Assembly (NCBI GenBank): GCA_028874365.1
Contig: JAPPJZ010000044.1
Location: 1-64,000 of the forward strand
Length of the DNA: 64,000 nucleotides
From: Chloroflexota bacterium
Lineage (GTDB): Bacteria; Chloroflexota; Dehalococcoidia; Bin125
Direction: 5' to 3'
Part shown: positions 22,496-61,857 of the stretch, piece by piece
How the letters are laid out: each line of letters opens with the position of its first letter
Numbering within the stretch: position 1 is the first letter of the stretch
Translations under genes and position numbers: made by a program
Notes under the pieces: model-generated
What the model saw: the letters and a program-made list of their open reading frames with translations, nothing else
What the model was told of the DNA's origin: nothing
The model's database searches: none

Positions 22496-23068
22496 ATGGA
22501 AGCCCTCGTCATCGCCCTGATTCGCGTTGCCGGATCCCTGCCCGTCCTTCGCTGGGCCTTCGTCGGCGGACTGATCGCCGTCTTCATCGACCTCTCCGAC
22601 CTGTTCCTGCGGCAGGCCATCGACCTGGGTGGACTGTCCAACTACCAGGAGTGGGACAAGTGGGTCGACCAGGTCTACATATGGCTGTTCCTCATCGTCG
22701 CCCTGCGCTGGGGCGGTTGGGAGCGGCGCGTGGCCGTGGGCCTGTTCGCCTGGCGGCTGATCGGCTTCATCGCCTTCACGGCCGGCGCCGGTCGCGGCAT
22801 CCTGATCTACTTCCCGCACGTGTTCGAGTTCTGGTTCCTGTTCGTCGCCGCCCGTCCACACTGGCCTGCGCGGCTGCGACCCGGCTGGGCCGAGGCCGAT
22901 GACGGAACCCCGGCGCCGCTCCGAGGGGCCGAGGCCGCGCGCTGGCTGCTCTTCCTCGCGGCCCTGAAGATCTTCCACGAGTACACCCTGCACACCGGCC
23001 AGTGGTTCGACAAGTGCGCCCCAATCGAGTTCATCGAGAACATTTCGAAGTGCATCGGCCCGGCCTGA
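22496..23068 (+). CDS. Small polytopic membrane protein, unknown function
   Basis: A 190-residue protein I cannot assign to a named family. Hydrophobic segments at about 18-40, 60-75, 82-100, 105-122 and 145-158 suggest four or five membrane helices. Conserved-looking polar patches are YQEWDKWVDQVYIW and LKIFHEYTLHTGQWFDK, the latter near the C-terminus. It lies 47 bp after phoU but probably has its own leaderless promoter, so a link to phosphate uptake is not implied. Both ends look natural. Confidence 0.6.
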   Translation: MEALVIALIRVAGSLPVLRWAFVGGLIAVFIDLSDLFLRQAIDLGGLSNYQEWDKWVDQVYIWLFLIVALRWGGWERRVAVGLFAWRLIGFIAFTAGAGRGILIYFPHVFEFWFLFVAARPHWPARLRPGWAEADDGTPAPLRGAEAARWLLFLAALKIFHEYTLHTGQWFDKCAPIEFIENISKCIGPA

Positions 23069-23208
23069 CAACCGCGCCGCTTCGGAGCCTCCGGTTCGTT
23101 GCGGGTGTGCTGGGAAAAAAACGAGGCCAGCCTGAGGCTTGGTGTGTTGGGTGTGTTGGGTGAGGTGGGTGTGGCGGATTTGTCAGTTGCGATCATGGGG
23201 TCTACTAT

Positions 23209-23226
23209 AGCGAACATTTGTTTGCT
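23209..23226. promoter_or_regulatory. LexA (SOS) box-like palindrome
   Basis: AGCGAACATTTGTTTGCT is an 18-nt palindrome with one mismatch. Its centre, CGAACATTTGTTTG, is close to the Gram-positive/Cheo-type LexA site CGAAC-N4-GTTYG. It is in a locally AT-rich patch (TCTACTATAG before, TAGGATAG after) 50 bp upstream of the terminase pair, where an operator would be expected. Confidence 0.5.
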
Positions 23227-23275
23227 AGGATAGTTGTTCAGGATGCAGGGGCGTGGTGGTGGAGGAGGTGCGGAG

Positions 23276-23629
23276 ATGTCATTTCCACTGACGTACCAGA
23301 CGACGATGACGATGGCGGCGGAGTTGGTGCTGGACTCGAACACGGCAGCGTATGTGCGCGAACGGGCGCTGCGCACGCTGATCCGTGAGCTGTCGCCGCT
23401 GAACGAGCGTCACCTGGAGGTGAAGCAGGAGCTGGGGATCGAGGACGGTCCGGCGGCGGCGAGGATCGACGTGGGCGCGGAATCGCGGGCCTACATGCAG
23501 GGTGTGCGCGACGGGATGGAGCGGGCGGAGGCGGCTGGGTCGACTGCGTCGGCTGAGGCGGTTGAAGGGGAGGACGAGGATGAGGGAGACGAGAGTTCGG
23601 ACGGGGCAGCGGAAGACGAACCACCATAA
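23276..23629 (+). CDS. Small terminase-like protein partner
   Basis: A 117-residue protein. The N-terminal 60 residues are helical (LTYQTTMTMAAELVLDSNTA, RERALRTLIRELSPLNERHL) and the last 30 are highly acidic (E, D, S). Position, size and an acidic tail are compatible with a small terminase subunit or a terminase-associated regulator, but no helix-turn-helix is clear. ATG 23276 is chosen for GGAGGAGG 10-15 nt upstream rather than earlier starts at 23234 or 23243. Its end overlaps the start of the large terminase gene by 50 bp. Confidence 0.5.
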   Translation: MSFPLTYQTTMTMAAELVLDSNTAAYVRERALRTLIRELSPLNERHLEVKQELGIEDGPAAARIDVGAESRAYMQGVRDGMERAEAAGSTASAEAVEGEDEDEGDESSDGAAEDEPP

Positions 23630-25001
23630 TCCCGGGGTTCTGCCGGCGCATGCTCGGCGCGGATTCAGACCCACGGATCGACAACAGGAGATCCACGATC
23701 TGCTGCTGGACGGCTCGGCCTCGAGTCTGACGTTGGTCGGGTACGGCGGGGCGATGGGCGGGGGCAAGACGCGGGCGATCGTCGAGTTGGCGATCGATGC
23801 GGCGCTGATGCATCCGGGCAACAACGTGCTGGTGGCGCGGCAGCATTACACCGATCTGTCGACGACCACGATGAAGGAGTTCGCTCGGGTTTGCCCGGAG
23901 CGCTACATCCGCCGACGTCAGGCGGCGCCGACTCCGCTGGTGCGGCTGGGCGAGCCGGGCTGCGCGTCGGCGGACTGGTCGACGGTGAACTTCCGCCATC
24001 TGACGGACTGGTCGGGGCTGGGCTCGCAGGAGTACGGGGCGGTGCTGATCGACGAGGCGGGCGAGGTGGCCGAGGAGGCTGCGCAGATGCTGTTGACCCG
24101 GCTGCGGCATCCGGCCCAGCTCCGGCGCTGGTTCGTGGCGGCGTCGAATCCGTGGCCGGGGTGGTTCGAGCGCTGGTTCGCGAAGCGTGAGCTGGACGAG
24201 GAGGCGCTGGGGCAGGCCGATGGTCGGGTGGTGTTCGTGCCAGCGCGGATCGAGGACAACCCGCACCTGCCCGAGCGGTACGCGGATCAGCAACGGGCGC
24301 TGCATCGGGGCGACTGGGTGGAGCGATTCATCGAGGGTCGGTTCGATGCGTTCGCGGGTCAGATCTACCCGCAGTTCGACGCGAAGGTGCACTTCTGGAG
24401 CGGGCCGCTGCCGCCCTTCGCGCGCTACGCCGGCGGGCTCGACTTCGGCGGTCTGTCGGAGGATGGCCACTGCACGGCGGGCGTGGTGGCGGGGATCACG
24501 GATCGACGGGCTCCGTGCGGCCCCAACGTGTTGATCCGACTGGACGAGTTCGAGGAACGCGGGGCGGATGCGATCCAGCGACTGGAGGCGTGGCAGCGGC
24601 GCTGGATCGGCCAGGTGGGACGGATTCGCTGGTGCGCCGACCGCACGCAGAGCGCCTGGATCGACCACCAGCGGCGCCAAGGGATGAACGTGGTTGCGAG
24701 CCGCGGCGGTGAGGGTTCGGTGTCCTGGGGCATCTCGCTGGTGCAGGAAGGGCTCGCGGCCGAGCCGCCGCGCTCGTTCTACACGGCGAACCTAAGGCGG
24801 TTCCCGGGTCGGATGCGGGAGTACCGCTGGGAGAGCAACGCGGGTGGGAACCCCAAACCGGTCAAGCGAAACGACGACCTGCTTGATGCCGACCGTTACA
24901 TGCACGAACTGCTGCAGCAGGTTCCGCGCTCCACGAGCGGGCCGGAAATCGTGATCCTCAACGGTCCGAGGGGCAAGATGGCCCACTGGCCAGGGCGATG
25001 A
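23580..25001 (+). CDS. Phage terminase large subunit (TerL)
   Basis: A 473-residue phage DNA-packaging motor. Walker A is GYGGAMGGGKTRAIV (about 53-67), Walker B is YGAVLIDEAGEV, and a coupling motif is VAASNPWPGW. The nuclease half starts at AGGLDFGG and ends with the acidic NDDLLDADRYMHE, so both ATPase and RNase H-like nuclease parts look complete. ATG 23580 has GGGGAGG upstream. No portal, protease, capsid or tail gene follows, so this is a stranded terminase: a prophage relic, satellite component or domesticated packaging gene. Codon choice is G-rich like the rest of the right side. Confidence 0.85.
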   Translation: MRETRVRTGQRKTNHHNPGVLPAHARRGFRPTDRQQEIHDLLLDGSASSLTLVGYGGAMGGGKTRAIVELAIDAALMHPGNNVLVARQHYTDLSTTTMKEFARVCPERYIRRRQAAPTPLVRLGEPGCASADWSTVNFRHLTDWSGLGSQEYGAVLIDEAGEVAEEAAQMLLTRLRHPAQLRRWFVAASNPWPGWFERWFAKRELDEEALGQADGRVVFVPARIEDNPHLPERYADQQRALHRGDWVERFIEGRFDAFAGQIYPQFDAKVHFWSGPLPPFARYAGGLDFGGLSEDGHCTAGVVAGITDRRAPCGPNVLIRLDEFEERGADAIQRLEAWQRRWIGQVGRIRWCADRTQSAWIDHQRRQGMNVVASRGGEGSVSWGISLVQEGLAAEPPRSFYTANLRRFPGRMREYRWESNAGGNPKPVKRNDDLLDADRYMHELLQQVPRSTSGPEIVILNGPRGKMAHWPGR

Positions 25002-25138
25002 ACCTTGATCGGGCCGTTCCCGCTCCCCGACTTGATCGGGGACCAGCCCGGGCTTGGCCCGTTGAGCGGAACTCGGGGTATCCTGCTCTTGTTGTGCATT
25101 TGACGCTGCCGAATTCCTGCGAGACCCCGAGGTAACCC

Positions 25139-26083
25139 ATGACGACCAGTGCGGCGGTCCCGCCGATTCGTCCCGACGAGATGTTGGCCGAGCAGCACGT
25201 CATCTGCCGCGACCTGTTCAAGATCTACAAGATCGCCGACCTCGAAGTGGTGGCCCTGCGCGGGCTCGATCTGACCGTCGGGCGGGGCGAGGTGCTGGCG
25301 ATCGTCGGCGCGTCCGGGTCGGGCAAGTCGACGCTGCTCAACGTGCTTGCCGGTCTCGACGTGCCGTCGGCCGGTCAGGCCTACGTCAACAAGGCCGACC
25401 TGCTCGCGCTGACCGAACAGGAACTGGTCGACTACCGGCGGGAAGAAGTCGGATTCGTCTGGCAGCAGACCGGCCGCAACCTGATTCCCTACCTCAATGC
25501 GCAGCAGAACATCGAAGTGCCGATGATCCTCGCCGGGCGCTCGCGCAAGCACGCGCGCGAGCGGGCGATGCAGTTGCTGCAGGCGGTGCAGCTACTGGAC
25601 AAGCGCAAGCAGCGGCCTGACCAGCTCTCGGGCGGTGAGCAGCAGCGCGTGTCGATCGGCGTTGCGCTGGCCAACGATCCGCCGCTGCTGCTGGCCGACG
25701 AGCCGACCGGTGAGTTGGACACGCACACGTCGGAGGAAATCTTCCACCTCTTCCGCAGTCTCTCGAATCAGTTCGGGCTGACGATCATCATCGTTACTCA
25801 CGACCCGGCGATCGCCGCCCGCGTCGACCGCGTGGTCGCGATTCGCGACGGCACGATCGCGACGGAGACGGTGCGTCGGGTGGAGAATCCGGGCACCGAG
25901 ATCGCCGAAGTCGTGCACGAAGAGTTCGCCGTGGTCGACGGCGCCGGCCGGCTGCAGATTCCCAAACCGCTGCTCGACCAGGTTGCCCTGGGTCGGCGCG
26001 CGTACGTCGATTCGCGGGAGGGCCGGATTGTGATCACGCCGGCCCACGAAGCCGACGCGGGAGATGAAGAGGCGGAGCGATGA
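25139..26083 (+). CDS. ABC transporter ATP-binding protein, LolD/MacB type
   Basis: A 314-residue ATPase. Walker A is VGASGSGKSTLLNV, the signature LSGGEQQRVSIGVA, and Walker B LLLADEPTGELD; the DEPTGELD form is typical of the MacB/LolD/FtsE group that works with FtsX-like permeases. The variant QQTGRNLIPYLNAQQN replaces the usual Q-loop FQ. About 75 extra C-terminal residues follow the domain. Start ATG 25139. It shares ATGA with the next ATPase gene. No permease is adjacent. Confidence 0.88.
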   Translation: MTTSAAVPPIRPDEMLAEQHVICRDLFKIYKIADLEVVALRGLDLTVGRGEVLAIVGASGSGKSTLLNVLAGLDVPSAGQAYVNKADLLALTEQELVDYRREEVGFVWQQTGRNLIPYLNAQQNIEVPMILAGRSRKHARERAMQLLQAVQLLDKRKQRPDQLSGGEQQRVSIGVALANDPPLLLADEPTGELDTHTSEEIFHLFRSLSNQFGLTIIIVTHDPAIAARVDRVVAIRDGTIATETVRRVENPGTEIAEVVHEEFAVVDGAGRLQIPKPLLDQVALGRRAYVDSREGRIVITPAHEADAGDEEAER

Positions 26084-57468: not shown

Positions 57469-59076
57469 ATGGAACAGTTGTTCACCGGTGGTCGGGTACT
57501 GACGATGGACGGACTCGATCGAATCGCGTCAGGAGTCGCCGTGCGCGACGGCAAGATCATCGCGGTCGGCGACAGCGATGAGGTACGGAGGCAAGTCGGC
57601 CCCGAGGCGACTCACGTTGACCTGCGCGGCCGCGCATTGATTCCCGGCTTCTGCGATCCGCACAACCACTTCTCGATGACGACGTTCGAGCCGCGCTCGG
57701 TCGATTGCCGGATCCCGCCTCTGGCCGGCAAACCGGCAGTGCTCGACGCCATCGCCGCCGCGGCGGAAGCCGCTCCCATTGGCCAGTGGGTCTGGGGGCT
57801 CGGTTACAGCGCCCGACACGCCAACGGCGGCTGGCTGACGCGGGACGAACTGGACGACGTGGCGCCCGACAATCCGATCTGTGTGATGGACTACTCCTAC
57901 CACGCCAGTTACGCCAACTCGGCCGCGATGTCGATCGCCGGGATCAACTTCGAAACGCCCGATCCGCGCGGCGGCCAGATCTTGCGCGACGAGAGTGGCG
58001 AGGCGACAGGGATGCTCTATGAGCGGGCTTCGGATCTCGTGCATCAGGCGTCGATGCGCGCGCACATCGACACGCTCGGTCCGGAGATCGTGGCCGACTT
58101 GGTAGAGCAGAACGCGCTGCGTCACCTCTCGCACGGTGTGACCAGCGTCGGCGACGCGGTCGTGATGCCGGAGAGCGCCGAGATGTACCGCTACGCGGAC
58201 GACCGCGGCAAGCTGCCGATCGTGATCCACCAGATGCGCGGCGGCAACGGCTTCTTCGCGGCGCCCGAGGCCGCCGCCAATGGCGCATTCCTGCAGGACG
58301 ACGTCTCCGATCGGCTGCGTGGGGGGATCGTGAAGCTGTTCATGGACCCGGTGTATCCATCGAACGCGCTGCGCAAGTGCCACGCCGACGGCACGTTCGA
58401 GGATGTCGGCGAGCCCTACTACAACCAGGACGAGGTCGATCAGCTCGTGCTCAACGCGGCCTCGCACGGGCTGCAGACGGCGATTCACTGTCTTGGCAAC
58501 CGCGCGATCGAGCAGGCGCTCAATACCTACGAGCGCGTCCAGCGCGAGATCCCTCGCAGCGACGCCCGCTACCGGATCGAGCACTTCTTCTTCGCCGACC
58601 CGGGCCAGATGGAGCGCGCCGCCTCGCTGGGCGTGATCATCTCGCACCAGCCTGCCTTCCTCTACTCAGTCGGGCAGGGCTTCGTCGACTTCATCGCCGA
58701 GGCCGGCCTGACGATCCCGCCGCTGCCCTACCGCTCGTTCCTCGACGCGGGCGTCACGGTGGCCTCCGGTTCCGACTTCCCCTGCGCGCCGGTCGAGCCG
58801 CTGATTGGGCTGTACGGCCTCACCGCTCGCCGCTCTCGGGAGGGTGACGTCATCGCGGAGGAAGAGACGCTCTCAGCACTCGAAGCGTTGCGCACGCAGA
58901 CGATCAACTCGGCGGTCGCGATGTTCCGCGACGATGAGGTTGGTTCGATTGAGGTCGGCAAGCGGGCTGATTTGGTCGTGCTGAGTCATGATCCAACGCT
59001 CGTCGATCCGGAGTCGATTCGCGACATCGTGGTGCAGCAGACGTATGTGGATGGGAAGTTGTTGTATTCGGTCTAG
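57469..59076 (+). CDS. YtcJ-type amidohydrolase, copy C
   Basis: A 535-residue paralogue of 50164-51780, with the same metal motifs: GFCDPHNHFSMTTFEPRSVD, TAIHCLGNRAIE, RIEHFFFAD and ASGSDFPCAPVEPL. The main difference is around residues 105-120, where this copy reads YSARHANGGWLTRDELD instead of the FSQSEPGIVTDDML type, so the substrate pockets may differ. ATG 57469 follows GAGGAGGCC. It is divergent from NCS2 copy B. Its stop shares CTAG with the VOC gene. Confidence 0.9.
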   Translation: MEQLFTGGRVLTMDGLDRIASGVAVRDGKIIAVGDSDEVRRQVGPEATHVDLRGRALIPGFCDPHNHFSMTTFEPRSVDCRIPPLAGKPAVLDAIAAAAEAAPIGQWVWGLGYSARHANGGWLTRDELDDVAPDNPICVMDYSYHASYANSAAMSIAGINFETPDPRGGQILRDESGEATGMLYERASDLVHQASMRAHIDTLGPEIVADLVEQNALRHLSHGVTSVGDAVVMPESAEMYRYADDRGKLPIVIHQMRGGNGFFAAPEAAANGAFLQDDVSDRLRGGIVKLFMDPVYPSNALRKCHADGTFEDVGEPYYNQDEVDQLVLNAASHGLQTAIHCLGNRAIEQALNTYERVQREIPRSDARYRIEHFFFADPGQMERAASLGVIISHQPAFLYSVGQGFVDFIAEAGLTIPPLPYRSFLDAGVTVASGSDFPCAPVEPLIGLYGLTARRSREGDVIAEEETLSALEALRTQTINSAVAMFRDDEVGSIEVGKRADLVVLSHDPTLVDPESIRDIVVQQTYVDGKLLYSV

Positions 59077-61455: not shown

Positions 61456-61857
61456 TCAAAGGCCTCGTTGCCAAGCGGGATCGATGTCGGTCAACGCAAA
61501 GTCATCGCCCTTGAAGAACAGCGGTTCGCCAATCGTCGCAGCGAGACCATAGACGACGCAGTCGCCGAAGTTGAGGTTCGCTTCGTGGTTCTTCTTTCCG
61601 AAGCGGCGCCACGCTTGGCGAGCGACCTGGATCTGATCGAGTGTGACAGGCACGAACTCCACGTCCAGCTCGGCGAGCAAAGGCTCGAGTAGTTCTTCGG
61701 CATCTGGGCCGCCCCGATTGTTGAGCGCGATTGTTGTCTCCAGCAGCGACATCACCGACATGCGACAATCCGACGTTGTCATCAAGACTCTTGAGAATTC
61801 GTCCGCTTCTGGCTCTCCCAGCAGAATCGCAACGATTACGGATGTATCGACAATCAA
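61456..61857 (-). CDS. vapC: VapC-type PIN-domain toxin
   Basis: A 133-residue PIN RNase. The acidic residues are D4 in MIVDTSVIVAILLGEPEADE, the Glu in SLLETTIAL, and the Asp in NLNFGDCVVYGLA, with a final acidic DIDPAW: the usual Mg-binding set. VapC toxins cut tRNA or rRNA. It starts at TTG 61857 inside the TTGA that also gives the vapB stop, so toxin translation depends on the antitoxin. Both are on the minus strand. Confidence 0.9.
   Translation of the reverse strand: MIVDTSVIVAILLGEPEADEFSRVLMTTSDCRMSVMSLLETTIALNNRGGPDAEELLEPLLAELDVEFVPVTLDQIQVARQAWRRFGKKNHEANLNFGDCVVYGLAATIGEPLFFKGDDFALTDIDPAWQRGL

Follow-up and report, generated by a model that had tools for sequence, protein, structure and literature searches.

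What is a phage-type DNA-packaging motor doing between host genes, behind a LexA-box-like palindrome and without genes for a shell? The question is raised by a pair of genes in the window, that is, in the whole stretch of 64,000 nucleotides that was analysed. The features of this locus are listed below (coordinates in the window, strand, feature).

23069-25072, plus strand: whole inserted cassette, as delimited against empty sites; left edge within ~10 nt around 23069-23079, right edge at 25024-25072.
23115-23121, minus strand: A7 run, a putative remnant (probably, and weakly recognised as such) of an inverted TerS-cassette end; read by eye against the T-runs that end L246-L248 and L086 and against A-runs on the left side of L033, L042 and L049.
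23180-23208, plus strand: promoter of the sigma-70 type, TTGTCA-N17-TACTAT, by direct reading of the sequence.
23209-23226, plus strand: LexA-box-like operator AGCGAACATTTGTTTGCT, with core GAAC-ATTT-GTTT at 23212-23223; in this genus, the promoters of lexA and recA have the same core.
23276-23629, plus strand: TerS-like small acidic protein, 117 aa, C-terminal EDEPP, no HTH domain seen (alignments A3, A4 and A5, and hhalign).
23580-25001, plus strand: TerL, ATPase and RuvC-like nuclease, 473 aa (Pfam, PHROG, alignment, PDB 5oe8).
23739-23771, plus strand: Walker A motif of TerL, GYGGAMGGGKT, key residues invariant in 28/28 copies.
24441-24443, 24639-24641 and 24891-24893, plus strand: nuclease Asp 1, Asp 2 and Asp 3 of TerL, invariant in 28/28 copies and aligned with PDB 5oe8.

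The earlier note had described a complete TerL and a small acidic partner standing alone between a membrane-protein gene and ABC ATPases, and the profiles, motifs and flanks agree with this description. To the left lies a membrane-protein gene (22496-23068), itself placed after phoU; to the right, two ABC ATPase genes start from 25139. The 18-nt palindrome is likewise present in operator position: 6 of its 7 arm pairs match and it lies directly 3' of TACTAT, the end of the promoter. As for the att sites and integrases that had been proposed as something to look for, the ~2-kb insert bounded by the empty sites holds two genes only, and neither an integrase nor an att site nor a replication gene was found in it. 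The ATG at 23276 is the likely start of the small gene, since it is preceded by GGAGGAGG and the homologues start with MSFP, which disfavours a start at 23234; for TerL, homologues such as L033 make the ATG at 23580 the best start. A palindromic GC-rich repeat, CCCCGACTTGATCGGGG, lies 3' of TerL (25006-25065) and recurs at the right end of L032 in the same genome, and similar repeats are scattered across relatives. ARAGORN placed a tRNA-Ser at 25656-25734, within an ABC ATPase gene, which is probably a false positive; Rfam returned two tRNAs and nothing else on 8 cassette loci.

The large gene belongs to the terminases by two independent profiles (Pfam Terminase_3, E 5.5e-10; PHROG phrog_2, E 7.8e-30). 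It carries a Walker A motif, a Walker B motif (LIDEAG) and three nuclease acids (D275, D341 and D425, numbered from 23619) that align with those of the solved TerL PDB 5oe8. All 28 aligned TerL copies (alignment A1, from which partial copies and a copy with an in-frame stop were left out) share, without exception, the three nuclease acids, the Walker A residues G, K and T and the Walker B residues D-E. Close relatives of this TerL were found in a narrow group of bacteria. TerL matches were obtained in 16 of the 61 genomes searched, that is, in 14/15 genomes of the genus, in G017 of the same family and in the distant G040 (31%). These correspond to about 30 full-length loci once split matches are merged by hand: 29 full-length or contig-split in the genus and one in G017. 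The pair does recur in related genomes, where it had been suggested to look for it. The genus genomes carry 0-4 TerL copies each and are draft assemblies, derived from metagenomes according to the record titles; their hosts might be, at a guess from the sample names, sponge symbionts. In the genome of the window there are two TerL paralogues, 73 and 68% identical in the best segment. When 84,980 species genomes, a set from which records close to that of the window may be missing, were scanned with two peptide patterns, 28 loci were retrieved, all in this group (Chloroflexota or Dehalococcoidia MAGs by record title). The cassettes are short intergenic insertions at many sites, with near-identical copies within some genomes.

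Does the palindrome mean control by DNA damage? By itself, the window palindrome is weak as a LexA box: it scores 7/8 core letters, a match of this kind within its own promoter region has a P of 0.03, and GAACN4GTTY occurs 5 times in the window against 2.8 expected. What makes it credible is that the same box stands upstream of other cassette copies. A LexA-like box was found upstream in all 27 cassettes examined, with a mean best score of 7.07/8 against 5.41 for mononucleotide shuffles and with scores of 6 or less in four (L037, L039, L040 and L050). In most of the 27, the box is directly followed by a -10-like ATACYAT; in the subclass of the window, the -10 precedes the box. The host has the matching regulator: LexA (TIGR00498, above cut-off) is encoded in 14/15 genus genomes, the own genome included, and RecA in 15/15. 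The genes for both carry the box themselves, the lexA upstreams as GAACN4GTTC with at most one core mismatch, followed by CGCACA (14/14), and the recA upstreams at 7/8 as GCAC-N4-GTTC (15/15). A strict operator pattern, GAACNNNNGTTCNNATACNATC, with one mismatch allowed, has 94 matches in the 15 genomes, none of them in 4 of these, against 0 matches for the reversed pattern. From these boxes and regulators we infer that the cassettes would be LexA-controlled and SOS-induced. Perfect GAACN4GTTC sites also lie at 57472-57483 (GAACAGTTGTTC) and 61516-61527 (GAACAGCGGTTC), in keeping with the number expected by chance in the window.

Purifying selection acts on TerL: dN/dS lies at 0.11-0.26 for eight of the pairs compared and at 0.03 for one more. 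The small gene is less tightly constrained (0.17-0.84 for five pairs). It is thus extremely unlikely that the locus is a decaying prophage fragment whose promoter was kept by chance. Terminases are indeed phage genes, and some copies are broken, either as TerL N-terminal fragments or by an in-frame TAA (L040, in G011), but such a fragment does not account for some 30 full-length loci, their selection and their conserved operators, nor for an insert that holds no other phage genes and is flanked by host genes. The suggestion that the pair might be a relic that kept its regulation is contradicted by the same copy number, selection and operators.

Several further features of the TerL copies deserve mention. 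Two copies at different sites of one genome (L055 and L056, in G013) differ by a dS of 0.30 and a dN of only 0.008, an unusually strong constraint between paralogues; a fresh duplication was rejected, given the difference at synonymous sites. The copies are mosaic, for in a sliding-window comparison the window TerL resembles L033 at the front, L031 in mid-gene and L032 at the end. Some C-terminal tails are genome-specific (window and L032; L035 and L055), and their reading as an adaptation to one portal was dropped: as other parts of the gene are equally patchy, recombination between copies is simpler. The linker of the nuclease domain contains in-frame low-complexity inserts (for instance, LPSPPA..GGDAE) at about columns 325-445 of A1 in copies such as L046, L048, L050, L052 and L055. 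They read like translated GC-rich repeats, in the manner of the palindromic elements inside Rickettsia genes.

The identity of the small partner is less direct. Neither Pfam nor PHROGs gave a TerS match, or any family, for the seven small proteins scanned. By hhalign, the A3 class (seven sequences) matches the part of a phage TerS behind the HTH over only 24 columns (probability 83, P 9e-6); the class of the window matches the A3 class weakly (probability 37, P 3.7e-4) and the phage TerS directly without significance (probability 3, P 0.014). The small proteins align solely to the portion of TerS that follows the HTH. A full TerS is encoded upstream of a related TerL on a phage contig (L125; Terminase_2, E 6.1e-25); it matches that family with residues 15-92, most of which are missing from the small proteins. 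The large gene downstream of this viral TerL was taken for the portal and has no Pfam family. Judged by these alignments, the small protein resembles a TerS minus its DNA-binding domain. The TerS of RcGTA also lacks an N-terminal DNA-binding domain, and the authors link this lack to random packaging (PMC6854486).

How did the pair arrive? Seven relatives (G011, G004, G010, G013, G007, G012 and G006) lack the segment 23069-25072 at the orthologous site, which is collinear apart from this, and the site is probably empty in an eighth, G003, whose contig starts there. By this comparison, the window pair is best described as a clean insertion of ~2 kb. The same site, referred to as the Pst site, is occupied in 7/15 genomes by different cassette versions: (i) TerS-TerL in G000, G001 and G014; (ii) a divergent form, with the right flank missing, in G008; (iii) TerS plus a truncated TerL in G009 and G005; and (iv) a TerS-only cassette in G002, where two contig ends were joined by inference alone. 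Another site, beside an enoyl-CoA-hydratase gene, is occupied in G000, G009, G011 and G013; among the 10 other genomes fetched, six have 25-195 bp between the flanks, three contain other sequence (~362 bp in G008, 614 bp in G001 and 1034 bp in G014) and the G005 contig ends. At a CoA-transferase site, G000 and G001 are empty, and flank comparison places a cassette in 11 others. In the TerL tree, the CoA-transferase copies cluster (3 changes; 0/500 shuffles as low) and the Pst copies do not (4 changes for 4 rows), which points to inheritance in place at some sites and to replacement or repeated arrival at others.

Most family members keep the TerS-like gene only. Such a gene lies behind 44 of the 94 operator sites, and something else behind the other 50. 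The 44 comprise 11 with full TerL (two of them divergent), six with an N-terminal TerL fragment, 23 without TerL, three cut by contig ends and one classed by eye, some of the classes having been corrected by hand. Six of the operators in G002 precede near-identical copies of a single TerS-only type. These copies share a left end, CCAACCAGAACACAACAACC, placed sharply ~20-28 nt before the box, and a T8 run closes them on the right in the three whose end is in view and at the Pst contig end. TerS-cassette ends are of the form CGCG-T7/8. Read by eye, other TerS-only copies have the T-run within what is left of the TerL start (RGFFxTDRQ) and therefore look like deletion derivatives. Across the 15 genomes, TerS cassettes that lack full TerL rise in number with the TerL count (Spearman 0.72, p 0.003, uncorrected for relatedness and assembly quality).

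It is possible, if unlikely, that the family is a transposon-like selfish element mobilised by TerL, with TerS-TerL as its autonomous form, TerS-only as its non-autonomous form and LexA timing the jumps. The near-identical, sharp-ended G002 copies at several places, the empty sites, the parallel between TerS-only and TerL numbers and the TerL-start remnants would all suit such an element. Its ends, nevertheless, do not: terminal inverted repeats and target duplications were not recognised, and the right ends of the two cassette types are unlike. Moreover, different types sit in the same intergenic spot, which homologous exchange explains better, and we know of no terminase that transposes DNA. 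Visual comparison of the Pst site, the enoyl-CoA-hydratase site and the near-identical G002 copies revealed neither target-site duplications nor inverted repeats; the empty spacers are too divergent to define duplications. No integrase or transposase was found with the cassettes.

The operator sites without TerS form a population of their own. Among L222-L315, 42 of these 50 sites belong to other short cassettes, which form three clusters and contain 10-bp direct repeats in arrays: ATCTGACCAA; AAATCTGGAC; and AATCGAACAA / AACCTGAAAG. In 34 members, lag-10 identity is 0.51-0.64 over 80 nt against 0.35 after shuffling; no 10-bp repeats were found in the 25 TerS cassettes measured. These iteron cassettes are possibly loading sites, regulatory RNA or peptide genes.

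Could the missing shell lie elsewhere in the genome? None of the cassette copies was seen to have a portal or capsid gene nearby; the earlier note had described the window pair as a motor without capsid genes. The families searched were the HK97-type and SPP1-type portals and the HK97 capsid, and the profile controls were positive; for Phage_portal and Phage_capsid, the positive one of the four control genomes was Caulobacter. Phage_portal (PF04860) and Phage_capsid (PF05065) each occur in 1/15 genomes and SPP1_portal (PF05133) in 0/15. Both hits lie on C209 of G003 (L062 and L063), which no other contig in the 15 genomes matches in having a portal and a capsid of HK97 type together; it is a small prophage, or a contig of a phage, within a draft assembly. 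A portal query built from the genes of two viral relatives (A6), which had no positive control, gave no match in the 15 genomes. No helper phage was identified either, the closest viral TerLs being 41-43% identical at best. A domesticated gene transfer agent whose capsid genes were missed is, on this count, very improbable. The GTA-type TerS, the conserved motor and the SOS-type control would be in keeping with one; the near absence of shell families (G003 excepted) is not, nor are the TerL copies, which are scattered and number 0-4 per genome where a GTA would have a single cluster. Of the domesticated gene-transfer machine that had been proposed, the seemingly HTH-less TerS fits and the shell does not. 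As to the damage-controlled motor without capsid genes, the absence of capsids holds, and LexA control holds as an appearance, given the box and the presence of LexA in the genus.

The sequences show the cassettes to be mobile or exchanged, multicopy, capsid-less units that bear a LexA box and are under selection. The explanation that we consider best, and hold tentatively and with less than even confidence, is that they are genus-specific LexA-box terminase cassettes whose motor packages cell DNA into capsids supplied by phages. The process would run as follows: (i) DNA damage or prophage induction would lead RecA to trigger the self-cleavage of LexA; (ii) the TerS-like protein and TerL would then be made; (iii) together they would form a packaging motor without sequence specificity; (iv) this motor would dock on procapsids from an infecting or induced phage and load cell DNA, thereby spoiling the phage burst; (v) the packaged cell DNA, cassettes included, would reach neighbours; and (vi) homologous flanks would return the cassettes to the same sites in the recipients. 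TerS-only copies would be derivatives minus TerL, working with the TerL of another cassette or of a phage. Packaging into phage capsids is preferred on the grounds that both TerL catalytic sites are kept and the sequence-recognition domain is seemingly lost.

The retention of these catalytic sites also bears on an anti-phage decoy, in which the HTH-less TerS, with or without TerL, would form dead-end complexes with a phage terminase or portal and block packaging, with no transfer of DNA. We regard it as unlikely: a TerS without HTH, many diverse copies, SOS-type control and a TerS-only majority are what such a decoy might look like, but a mere decoy would not need TerL catalytic residues that are all kept under purifying selection. 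A more far-reaching version of packaging into phage capsids, and a rather improbable one, would be an SOS-run, distributed gene-transfer network without capsids of its own, in which the scattered motors would be sequence-blind, the iteron cassettes would serve as loading sites, any resident phage would supply the shells and the cassettes would spread with the packaged DNA; in its bolder form, TerL itself would move the cassette, as the first terminase acting as a transposase.

Packaging motors are otherwise seen with capsid genes, in phages and GTAs, or in integrase-bearing satellites. The cassettes can be compared with the following systems: (i) satellites of the PICI, SaPI and PLE types are also chromosomal units tied to packaging, which they may redirect, and some have a TerS; the cassettes, in contrast, lack an integrase, an att site and genes for replication or capsid remodelling, measure ~0.5-2 kb, occur in many copies per genome, carry TerL in some cases and a seemingly HTH-less TerS, and show a LexA-type box instead of a helper-phage switch; (ii) GTAs of the RcGTA type have a TerS without N-terminal DNA-binding domain, which the small protein may resemble, and are likewise maintained in the manner of host genes, under purifying selection, but the cassettes have no linked or unlinked portal or capsid of the families tested, and several dispersed motors instead of one particle cluster; (iii) SPP1-like / phrog_2 modules (Terminase_2 TerS plus Terminase_3 TerL) share the TerL family, the motifs and the TerS-TerL order, and the cassettes probably descend from them, whereas in the phage module a portal follows and TerS has its HTH, and the cassette has neither; (iv) IS and MITEs are likewise short and multicopy, with full and gene-deleted forms and empty sites, but in the cassettes a transposase, terminal inverted repeats and target duplications were not recognised; and (v) LexA regulon genes share the GAAC-N4-GTTC core at the promoter, but here the box travels with multiplying cassettes. 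A satellite or helper-dependent element, as the earlier note had it, is the closest as a mode of working, and falls short in that the insert has no integrase, att site or replication gene and no helper was found.

The family does not qualify as a PICI, for want of an integrase, as a GTA, for want of shell genes, as a recognised IS, since neither repeats nor duplications were seen, or as a relic, given the selection; we know of no kind of genetic element that it matches. A literature search found no description of stand-alone LexA-controlled terminase cassettes in those parts of the sources that it covered. A LexA box joined to an HTH-less TerS-like gene, with or without TerL, and multiplying in one bacterial group would be a new use of a phage motor, coupling packaging to DNA damage in a unit that has no shell genes; the motor might serve to steal capsids, block phages, move cell DNA or move itself. 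Since a single genus shows the empty stage together with the TerS-only and TerS-TerL ones, the question of how GTAs and satellites begin becomes directly testable here.
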